Under the pieces are notes generated by a model, which did no database searches, was not told the origin of the DNA, and saw nothing but the letters and a program-made list of their open reading frames with translations. Positions 26,044 through 28,468 of a stretch of DNA of 64,000 nucleotides are shown here, piece by piece. Origin of the DNA: Sulfitobacter sp. JL08 (GTDB lineage Bacteria > Pseudomonadota > Alphaproteobacteria > Rhodobacterales > Rhodobacteraceae); NCBI RefSeq assembly GCF_003352045.1, contig NZ_CP025815.1, positions 2,976,001-3,040,000 on the forward strand, written 5' to 3'. Numbering within the stretch: position 1 is the first letter of the stretch; each line of letters begins with the position of its first letter. The position numbers and the translations under genes are program-made.

Positions 26044-27087
26044 TCAATACGGCATCGGACACTGGCGTTGGGCCGCATCGATCTCTGCCAGCACCTCATC
26101 GTCCAGCGTCACATCCGCGGCCCCCAGCGCCAGATCCAGTTGATCCATCGTCGTTGCACCAAAAATCACCGATGCCATGAACGGGCGTGTGGCGCACCAG
26201 GCCAACGCCATCTGCACCGGGTCCAGCCCGTGTTTCTGCGCGATGCCAAGATACAGATCCACCGCCGCGAAGGCGCGGTCTGTCTTGCGTCCACCCAGAT
26301 CACCGTTCAGCGACATGCGCGATCCCTGCGGCACTGCGCCGTTCTGGTATTTCCCGCTCAGCAATCCGGCCGCCAAAGGCGAAAACGCCAGCAGGCCGAC
26401 ATCCTCGTTGACGCTCAGTTCCGCCAGATCGGTGTCATACATCCGGCACAGCAGCGAATACTCATTCTGGATCGAGGCAACGCGCGGCAGGCCCTTGTCC
26501 TCGGACAGGCGCAGCCATTGGGCCGTGCCCCAGGCGCTTTCGTTGGACAGACCAAAGGCGCGGATCGTGCCCTTGTCGACCTCGCGCTGCAGCGCGCCCA
26601 GCGCATCCTCCATATGGGCCAGCGTCTCGGCCTTGTTCTGGCCGGACGGATCATAGGTCCAGTTCTTGCGAAACATGTAGGATCCGCGATTGGGCCAGTG
26701 AAACTGGTAAAGATCGATGTAATCCGTTTTCAGCCGCTTCAGAGATCCCGCGATTGTGTCGGGAATTGTCTTGGATGAAATCGGCGCACCATCGCGGACA
26801 TATCCCAACCCCTCGCCCGAATGTTTGGTCGCGAGGATCACCTGATCGCGCCGCCCCGATTGTTCGACCCATTGTCCGATGATGTCCTCGGTGCGGCCAA
26901 CGGTTTCCTTGCTGACAGGGTTCACAGGGTACATTTCCGCCGTGTCGATGAAATTCACCCCCCGTTCCAGCGCGCGGTCGATCTGGGCGTGACCTTCGCC
27001 AACCGTGTTCTGCGTGCCCCAGGTCATTGATCCCAGACACAGTTCCGACACGGCAAGACCGGTGCGGCCCAACGGCTTCATCTTCAT
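26044..27087 (-). CDS. Aldo/keto reductase, Tas-like
   Basis: 347 residues from ATG 27087 (MKMKPLGRTGLAV); the open frame extends upstream but the family begins here. NADPH-dependent (alpha/beta)8 barrel: catalytic Asp/Tyr in NFIDTAEMYP, Lys in VILATKHSG and His in YQFHWPNR. The insertion around RKNWTYDPSGQNK and overall sequence resemble the Tas/YdhF-type subgroup. The substrate is unknown. It converges with the GlxA-type regulator and diverges from the ImuA-like gene. Confidence 0.9.
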   Translation of the reverse strand: MKMKPLGRTGLAVSELCLGSMTWGTQNTVGEGHAQIDRALERGVNFIDTAEMYPVNPVSKETVGRTEDIIGQWVEQSGRRDQVILATKHSGEGLGYVRDGAPISSKTIPDTIAGSLKRLKTDYIDLYQFHWPNRGSYMFRKNWTYDPSGQNKAETLAHMEDALGALQREVDKGTIRAFGLSNESAWGTAQWLRLSEDKGLPRVASIQNEYSLLCRMYDTDLAELSVNEDVGLLAFSPLAAGLLSGKYQNGAVPQGSRMSLNGDLGGRKTDRAFAAVDLYLGIAQKHGLDPVQMALAWCATRPFMASVIFGATTMDQLDLALGAADVTLDDEVLAEIDAAQRQCPMPY

Positions 27088-27167: not shown

Positions 27168-27182
27168 GAACAAACAAAGAAC
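27168..27182. promoter_or_regulatory. LexA (SOS) box, GAAC-N7-GAAC
   Basis: GAAC (27168-27171) and GAAC (27179-27182) with seven intervening bases form a perfect match to the alphaproteobacterial LexA operator. It ends 16 bases before the start of the ImuA-like gene, where a repressor would block initiation. Confidence 0.75.
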
Positions 27183-27198
27183 ATATTAATGTGATCCC

Positions 27199-27816
27199 AT
27201 GAATCAAACCCTGCTTTCGCGCGCCCCGGACACGGCACCGCCGTCGCTGACCCTGCTGGGGCAGTTGTCCTTGCGCCTTGCCCGTCTGCACGAGGTCTGC
27301 GGCGCAGCCCGCCACAGCTTTGCACTATGGTGCGCGGCGCAGACCAGCGGGCCGGTTTTGTGGATCGCCCCCGATTGGGGCACCAACGGGCTGCACGGGG
27401 CGGGCATCCACCCTTTTGTAAATCCCGGGCGTCTGATCTTTGTGCACCCGCGGCGCGCCGAAGACACCCTTTGGACCATGGAAGAAGCGTTGCGCAGCGG
27501 TGCTGCCCCGCTGGTGGTCGGGGATGTGCCCGCCCCGCCGGGTCTGACCGCAGTGCGGCGCATGCATCTGGCGGCACAAGCCGGTGCACAGGCCGGAATG
27601 GGTGCACCTCTGGGTCTGCTGCTGACACCGGGGGATGGCGGCGCACCCGGTGTCGAAAGCCGCTGGCACATGGCCCCGCGCCACAGCGCGACCCAAACGC
27701 TCTGGCATCTGGAACGGCGCCGCGCCCGCACCGCAGCACCGCAAAGCTGGCAGATCACAGCGTCCGGCGGGGGCACACAGGGTGCAGCGCCCGGGCTTGG
27801 CATCAAAGTGCTGTGA
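27199..27816 (+). CDS. ImuA-like SOS protein, unaccompanied by imuB/dnaE2
   Basis: 205 residues. LSLRLARLHEVCGAARHSFALWCAA, GPVLWIAPDWG and GLLLTPGDGGAPGVESRW are the pattern of rhodobacterial ImuA-like proteins, RecA-related accessory factors of the ImuB/DnaE2 mutasome used in translesion synthesis. No intact Walker A is visible, so ATPase activity is doubtful. A perfect LexA box precedes it, indicating SOS induction. The usual imuB and dnaE2 do not follow; the next gene is a YceI protein. The partners may be elsewhere on the genome, or this may be a separate paralogue. Confidence 0.75.
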   Translation: MNQTLLSRAPDTAPPSLTLLGQLSLRLARLHEVCGAARHSFALWCAAQTSGPVLWIAPDWGTNGLHGAGIHPFVNPGRLIFVHPRRAEDTLWTMEEALRSGAAPLVVGDVPAPPGLTAVRRMHLAAQAGAQAGMGAPLGLLLTPGDGGAPGVESRWHMAPRHSATQTLWHLERRRARTAAPQSWQITASGGGTQGAAPGLGIKVL

Positions 27817-27865: not shown

Positions 27866-28468
27866 ATGAAACAATTTCTTTCGGTCCGCATCCTGCTGCA
27901 CGCCATCCTGATCATGGTGCTTGGCACGGCCACATCCAGCGCAGCCCCGACACGCTATGCGCTGGACCAGACAGTTTCCCAGGTGGGGTTTATCTATGTG
28001 CTGAACGGTGCCGAGCAAAAAGGCACAATGCCCGTCAGTCAGGCCGATCTGGTCATTGATCCCGAAAACCTGCGTGACGCCAAAGTTGACGTTCAGGTCA
28101 GCGTGGAAAAGGCACGCACCGGGCTGATCTTTGCCACGGACGCGCTCAAGGCGCCATCGGTTCTGGATGCCGGACAATTCCCAACCATCCGCTTTGTCGC
28201 AACGGCCATCCATCTGGGGGCCGATGGCCGCCTGTCCAATGGCGCGCGCATCGATGGCGACATCACCATGCGCGGCGTCACCCGCCCGGCCAGCTTTCAG
28301 GCCAGCCTGTTTCGCATGCAGGGCAGCGCGCCCGACGATCTGAGCACTCTGACCATCCGTCTGACAGGGGCGGTGCGGCGATCGGATTTCGGGGCAAGCG
28401 GATACGCGGACCTTGTCGGCGACGTGGTACAGCTTGACATAGTTGCCCGCATTCAGGCGCAGCGTTAA
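27866..28468 (+). CDS. YceI family secreted protein
   Basis: 200 residues with a signal peptide (LHAILIMVLGTATSSAAP). The mature protein has the YceI lipocalin-like barrel, which binds isoprenoid-type lipids: TRYALDQTVSQVGFIYVLNG, DAGQFPTIRFVATAI and GDITMRGVTRPASFQ. It is periplasmic, with an uncertain role. ATG 27866 is the only start with a proper signal peptide; upstream in-frame sequence overlaps the ImuA-like gene. Confidence 0.9.
   Translation: MKQFLSVRILLHAILIMVLGTATSSAAPTRYALDQTVSQVGFIYVLNGAEQKGTMPVSQADLVIDPENLRDAKVDVQVSVEKARTGLIFATDALKAPSVLDAGQFPTIRFVATAIHLGADGRLSNGARIDGDITMRGVTRPASFQASLFRMQGSAPDDLSTLTIRLTGAVRRSDFGASGYADLVGDVVQLDIVARIQAQR

Follow-up and report, generated by a model that had tools for sequence, protein, structure and literature searches.

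The imuA-like gene of Sulfitobacter sp. JL08 very probably codes for ImuA in a translesion mutasome of the ImuA-ImuB-DnaE2 kind. The genes of this mutasome would have become dispersed, probably on a single occasion, in an ancestral member of this alphaproteobacterial family, leaving four LexA-boxed genes: imuA, imuB, dnaE2 and a separate gene for an OB-fold protein. In several bacteria a mutasome of this kind is the driver of mutation after DNA damage, and split cassettes are known, so contiguity with imuB and dnaE2 is common but not defining for ImuA. The original prediction had noted an SOS-controlled ImuA-like gene without ImuB or DnaE2 and offered two explanations, a cassette that is split in this genome or an orphan SOS protein with another task. 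The first of these is what we found, and our reasons for setting the second aside are given below.

The window referred to throughout is the whole 64-kb stretch (64,000 nucleotides) of the JL08 chromosome in which imuA was noticed. The coordinates of imuA, its neighbours and the other genes of the dispersed set are collected in Table 1; start codons in all loci are predictions. The predicted perfect GAAC-N7-GAAC box is present and ends 16 bases before the ATG of imuA (C1:3003199 in chromosome coordinates), and the next gene is indeed a yceI, with neither imuB nor dnaE2 beside imuA. It is possible that yceI is co-transcribed with imuA and it might be induced by read-through, judging from the gene arrangement. 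Among the 30 imuA loci read in this genome and its relatives, an aldo/keto reductase match adjoins imuA in 17 and a yceI match lies downstream in 5, one of them partial.

Table 1. Predicted features of the imuA locus (window positions) and of the other dispersed genes (chromosome positions, C1) in Sulfitobacter sp. JL08.
Feature	Position	Strand	Basis or remark
LexA operator GAAC-N7-GAAC of imuA (predicted)	27168..27182	+	sequence GAACAAACAAAGAAC; box conserved upstream in relatives
imuA, 205 aa; very probably an accessory, RecA-like subunit in the dispersed SOS mutasome	27199..27816	+	profile, structure model, tree
yceI, same strand as imuA and 50 bp 3′ of it; outside the mutasome	27866..28468	+	PF04264, E 1.2e-22
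aldo/keto reductase, divergent neighbour upstream of imuA	26044..27087	-	PF00248, E 7e-59
imuB, full-length, 552 aa	C1:3338889-3340544	-	Y-family search; box GAACAAAAATAGAAC just upstream
dnaE2, 959 aa	C1:3362366-3365242	+	box GAACAAAAGGTGAAT upstream
lone OB-fold gene, 124 aa	C1:1090128-1090499 (L248:1504-1875)	-	search with the missing DnaE2 OB domain; PF01336

The description of the gene as ImuA-like was upheld by both profile and structure. The protein matches the NCBIfam model ImuA_translesion with an E-value of 1.5e-8 and 34.8 bits, which is below the curated cut-off of 150, but the same model gives only 29.9 bits for an ImuA within an intact cassette of the same bacterial family and is thus a poor fit to this group. 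An AlphaFold model built with 48 aligned ImuAs reached a pLDDT of 92.1 and, when compared with the PDB, had RecA structures as its top matches (E 6.7e-8, TM to query about 0.6), giving it a RecA-like fold. No Walker A loop was seen in the ImuA alignment when it was read by eye against RecA, and absence of this loop is the proteobacterial ImuA1 type.

The genome is 4.32 Mb in one contig. A search of it for imuB, dnaE2 and a second imuA, as the original prediction had advised, recovered imuB and dnaE2, both preceded by a LexA-type box of their own, and a single imuA-like match at E-values up to 10. The absence of ImuB and DnaE2 therefore holds at the locus and fails for the genome, where both are present elsewhere on the same chromosome. 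The two genes are 22 kb apart and both are more than 300 kb from imuA. A divergent alcohol-dehydrogenase-type gene (named by eye) adjoins imuB, and the ATG of the lone OB gene follows 2 bp after a perfect LexA-type box located between this gene and a divergent neighbour that looks ferredoxin-like by eye. A perfect box is also found 99 bp ahead of the match start of recA in JL08, suggesting that the GAAC-N7-GAAC consensus is in use here. ImuB carries the RecA-NT-like motif LDDLIGRIGARVGLDAI; a strict regular expression for this motif matched 16 of 24 dispersed ImuBs and 17 of 22 other ImuBs.

For comparison we used 100 relatives together with the JL08 genome itself, of which 61 genomes belong to the same family and 40 to other families of the class. 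An ImuA match was found in 65 of the 101 genomes, an ImuB match in 73 and a DnaE-type match in 99, though this last search also catches DnaE1. Twenty-five genomes of the family have the dispersed set, and the operators of one of them (G033) were not among the loci read. A chance match in front of a gene outside LexA control would explain the imuA box if only the window were considered, as the window holds 3 perfect boxes against 1.68 expected from shuffles and the other two lie inside ORFs; on its own the box is not beyond chance, and its reality rests on conservation. In the dispersed-set loci read, all 24 imuA genes have a perfect box no more than 49 bp from the predicted start (28 of 30 over all imuA loci read) even though the spacer varies among the conserved boxes, and perfect boxes elsewhere in the imuA and imuB loci occur at only about 0.01 per 100 bp. 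A chance operator was rejected on this conservation and low background, and we give it hardly any credence. No box was seen before the imuA of G026.

The other genes of the set show a similar pattern with one departure. A perfect box precedes imuB in 22 of the 23 dispersed-set loci read, and lone OB genes have one within 150 bp upstream in 49 of 53 cases, where 0.005 would be expected per 150-bp stretch; the remaining 4 are without. The dnaE2 operators of the dispersed-set loci are perfect in 8 of 23 and read GAAC-N7-GAAT in 15 (L098-L120), a conserved ending to which LexA may bind less tightly.

The polymerase, too, is in two parts. In alignment, 23 dispersed-set DnaE2s and that of G033 stop shortly beyond the helix-hairpin-helix region and lack both the OB domain and the SRDF[H/R] tail that follow it in cassette DnaE2s. 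The OB-domain model PF01336 matches a cassette DnaE2 (L131) and the lone OB protein, with no match in the JL08 DnaE2 core. Against the error-prone-polymerase model NF004225 (1047 positions), the core matches positions 6-938 and the OB protein 942-1039, and the core alone scores 1209.3 bits, above the cut-off of 939. To judge from these matches, dnaE2 has been split cleanly into two genes, and the match stops eight positions before the end of the model. An OB signature was present in all 24 full DnaE2s compared and in none of 23 short ones. The strict SRDF[H/R] ending was found in 21 of the 24 full DnaE2s and was absent from the 23 short DnaE2s and from 53 lone OB proteins, so that core and OB protein together are not quite a whole DnaE2. 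The lone OB proteins have a feature of their own, an N-terminal WP[RK]PP before the OB fold, in 50 of 53 (none of the 24 fused DnaE2s); the motif count took one locus, L250, in a wrong reading frame.

A lone OB gene is present in 24 of the 25 dispersed-set genomes, in a stop-to-stop frame of 115-343 aa, with G044 as the only exception. In the other DnaE2-bearing genomes of the family the OB domain is within a long frame of 736-1619 aa, counting as fused the ambiguous G021, whose assembly is broken and has the domain in a 213-aa frame of a different contig; G009 is also ambiguous, with one extra short OB match at base 9 of a contig. Two genomes show the set in unusual states. G051 (L056, L087, L259) has ImuA, an insertion-type ImuB and a lone OB gene, and no DnaE2 was found in it; its sole DnaE-type match resembles DnaE1, being 32% identical to the DnaE2 query, which would mean that DnaE2 was lost recently or that a replicon is missing. 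G033 (L165, L376, L375), a 1.9-Mb genome, has a very divergent ImuB (about 25% identity) that nevertheless holds the insertion motif, along with a short DnaE2 and a lone OB match in a 115-aa frame.

ImuB differs as well. Dispersed-set ImuBs contain about 45 extra residues, with lengths of mostly 520-560 aa against mostly 475-510 aa for those without the insertion, and the insertion is missing from cassette ImuBs. It reads about GDAIDQEARATRSRAxKRRHW and is basic, with a mean net charge of +4 in 43-residue segments. Since it was recognised by the pattern E[AS]xAT[RK], the pattern positions are conserved by construction, and the informative residues are those around it: over 97 insertions, G (98%), D (95%), I (93%) and Q (96%) before the pattern and R (96%), A (98%) and R (93%) after it. 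The whole-protein ImuB model had a pTM of 0.55, with residues 163-174 and 180-203 at pLDDT below 50, and in this model the insertion is probably flexible.

These traits occur together. Among the 61 family genomes, 24 have only the dispersed set, 29 have only an OB-fused DnaE2, 7 have neither and 1 (G035) has both, so the two rarely coexist, at a Fisher p of 9e-10 that ignores kinship and treats relatives as independent samples, which they are not. In G040, where ImuB is broken at a contig end and the insertion is not visible, the assignment to the dispersed set was made on its short DnaE2 and lone OB gene. Distances between imuB and dnaE2 in relatives can be much shorter than in JL08, at 0.6 kb with divergent genes (G031), 1.4 kb (G057) and 3.2 kb (G043).

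A second sample took the 80 best-scoring among 584 publicly titled ImuB loci, including Ruegeria, Roseobacter, Tateyamaria, Shimia, Phaeobacter, Leisingera, Rhodovulum, Rhodobacter and Amaricoccus. In these best 80 the insertion is present in 74 and missing from 6, a ratio biased towards the type of the query. Among the 74 insertion loci no contiguous imuA-imuB-dnaE2 cassette is seen, although in L221 and L236 fewer than 300 bp precede imuB and imuA may be adjacent there, while all 6 loci without the insertion are intact cassettes. Among the same 74, imuA lies within 10 kb in 1 and dnaE2 within 10 kb of imuB in 8. When 48 genomes from these best 80 loci were searched, an OB match outside a DnaE2-length frame was found in 41 of 42 insertion genomes (frames of 128-447 aa; G131 had no OB match), and in all 6 cassette genomes the OB domain is in or next to the DnaE2 stretch. 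One of the cassette genomes, G145, is ambiguous, with a 611-aa frame and an extra 171-aa OB frame.

On the ImuB tree, which omits the fragments of G040, G049a and G030, the insertion type is separated from the other ImuBs by a single branch (96/99; recovered in 98% of 200 bootstrap trees). On the RpoB tree the dispersed and cassette genomes are interleaved, with 16 changes against a shuffle mean of 18.3. ImuB distances correlate with RpoB distances in dispersed-set genomes (Spearman 0.66, n 24) and in cassette genomes (0.42, n 12), and distances of the lone OB protein follow those of DnaE2 (0.61). ImuA distances correlate weakly with RpoB (0.28) and more closely with ImuB (0.61). We read these trees and distances as pointing to a single old origin of the dispersed set, which then descended mainly vertically and was replaced time and again by intact cassettes.

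Four further genomes help to place ImuA. The clade of split-type ImuAs (100/98) also includes G026, G030, G037 and G039, in which the split-type protein is the sole ImuA match and ImuB and DnaE2 are of the cassette type with no imuA match beside them (in G039 44 bases, which include a box, separate imuB from the start of the contig, and the ImuB of G030 is too fragmentary for the tree). The idea that these are halfway stages of splitting was dropped, given that their ImuAs lie inside the split clade and the ImuBs of G026, G037 and G039 among cassette ImuBs; a replacement of imuB and dnaE2 by a cassette fits these sequences better. By eye, the stretch before imuB in G026 looks transposase-like.

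How the four genes would act together we infer from their boxes and their homologies. Following inactivation of LexA by RecA, imuA, imuB, dnaE2 and the OB gene would be induced together though apart. ImuA, RecA-like and without a recognisable Walker A loop, would dock on the RecA-NT-like motif of ImuB, an inactive Y-family protein, and ImuB would recruit the DnaE2 core. The OB protein would rejoin in trans, perhaps via the ImuB insertion or via its own conserved N-terminal WPRPP motif, and the assembled complex would be responsible for mutagenesis. Docking of ImuA on ImuB is the likeliest mechanism in view of the apparent stand-in ImuA of the four genomes above and of the motif in ImuB, for which a role is described in the available portions of PMC6511836 and PMC12926913. 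Several observations count against this proposal. G051 keeps the other three genes with no DnaE2 found, G044 and G131 gave no OB match, most dnaE2 operators depart from the consensus in their last base, and 4 of 53 OB genes and the imuA of G026 show no perfect box. The same goes for the closeness of imuB and dnaE2 in some relatives, the SRDF[H/R] tail missing from both parts of the polymerase, the weak tracking of RpoB by ImuA and the incomplete matching of the strict RecA-NT expression.

It could instead be argued that imuA is an orphan SOS gene, for example for a modulator of RecA or a SulA-like division inhibitor, as the RecA-like fold, the weak SulA-model scores (E 0.11-0.14) and the lack of an operon with imuB or dnaE2 might suggest. 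The SulA matches reach only 12.0-12.3 bits where the curated cut-offs are 150 and 162, and the same models also match an ImuA within an intact cassette. The gene also keeps the company expected of a mutasome subunit, as an ImuB match accompanies this ImuA type in each of the 28 family genomes that have it, and of all ImuA matches in the 61 family genomes only that of G019, a marginal one (E 0.005, three stops), is without ImuB. The reverse case, an ImuB without an ImuA match at E 0.01, is seen in G018, G023, G050 and G058, all with distant cassettes. ImuA distances track those of ImuB, and our best evidence is that in the four genomes of the split-type clade this protein is the only ImuA match accompanying cassette-type ImuB and DnaE2, where it seems to stand in for a lost cassette ImuA. 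A SulA-like or RecA-modulating role was rejected on the cut-offs, the co-occurrence with ImuB and this clade, and we regard an orphan function as very unlikely; the ImuA of the window is most likely a mutasome subunit.

A subtler alternative accepts that ImuA, ImuB and the short DnaE2 cooperate and makes the lone OB protein a single-strand-binding protein of the SOS response that has become independent of DnaE2. Its gene is unlinked, the WP[RK]PP motif is confined to the lone form in the proteins compared, and the gene is kept in G051 beside no DnaE2 match, all of which would fit such a role. On the other hand, its presence closely tracks the short DnaE2 and the ImuB insertion, its distances follow those of DnaE2, and it starts where the core ends in the polymerase model, and we consider independence unlikely without finding it far-fetched. 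If the OB protein is instead a mutasome subunit, as we prefer, a further possibility can be put forward tentatively: gene fission may have turned an error-prone replicase into a multi-subunit one, in which OB is a separately induced, exchangeable subunit recruited by a newly acquired basic arm on ImuB, synthesis of DnaE2 either with OB or lacking it tunes the extent and mutagenicity of damaged-DNA copying, and the differing operators set the order of assembly. We hold this extension to be doubtful, if attractive.

Compared with the proteobacterial ImuA-ImuB-DnaE2 cassette, as ImuA1-ImuB1-DnaE2A is presented in the accessible text of PMC12926913, the JL08 set is alike in its homologous proteins, LexA-type boxes, RecA-like ImuA and RecA-NT-like motif in ImuB, and differs in having separate genes with their own boxes, a basic insertion in ImuB, a separate OB gene and no SRDF[H/R] tail. 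According to the same accessible text, no solved structure of the complex is known. The mycobacterial arrangement of imuA′-imuB and dnaE2 (PMC6511836; a 'split multigene cassette' in PMC3919608) is likewise not contiguous, but in the sections of PMC6511836 at hand imuA′ and imuB are together, whereas in JL08 imuA and imuB lie at separate loci and the polymerase too is split in two. The 'several' DnaE2s without an OB domain mentioned in the consulted part of PMC3919608 also end before it; here the missing domain is a separate gene, mostly LexA-boxed, in nearly all genomes examined. In Dinoroseobacter shibae, another roseobacter, the same system occurs as an imuA-imuB-dnaE2-type cassette on a 126-kb plasmid, as stated in the accessible portion of PMC9426580; across the relatives, this form and the dispersed set seem to take turns. 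The main text of the D. shibae network paper does not mention imuA, imuB or dnaE.

Split cassettes, a few OB-less DnaE2s and the D. shibae plasmid cassette are thus already in print, going by the excerpts of PMC3919608, PMC6511836 and PMC9426580 available to us. A literature search of titles and abstract openings, with few subscription papers, gave no mention of a LexA-boxed separate OB gene, of a link between that gene and the short DnaE2 or the ImuB insertion, or of the insertion itself, and these features may be new. The dispersed set is a mutasome taken apart by nature, in which each gene is open to single deletion or overexpression and the OB domain of a C-family polymerase becomes studiable as a separate molecule, and the ImuB insertion may point to an interface. 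It also accounts for cassette searches in many roseobacters that give only a lone imuA or imuB. The rare coexistence of the dispersed set with intact cassettes raises a question of compatibility. G035 is the sole family genome with both, having the full dispersed set on its chromosome and a cassette on a 126,304-base contig. This cassette (G035:C4) and that of G002 (G002:C36), L144 and L145, are nearly identical intact imuA-imuB-dnaE2 cassettes in two genera, with branches of 0.016 on the ImuB tree, and their near-identity suggests mobility.
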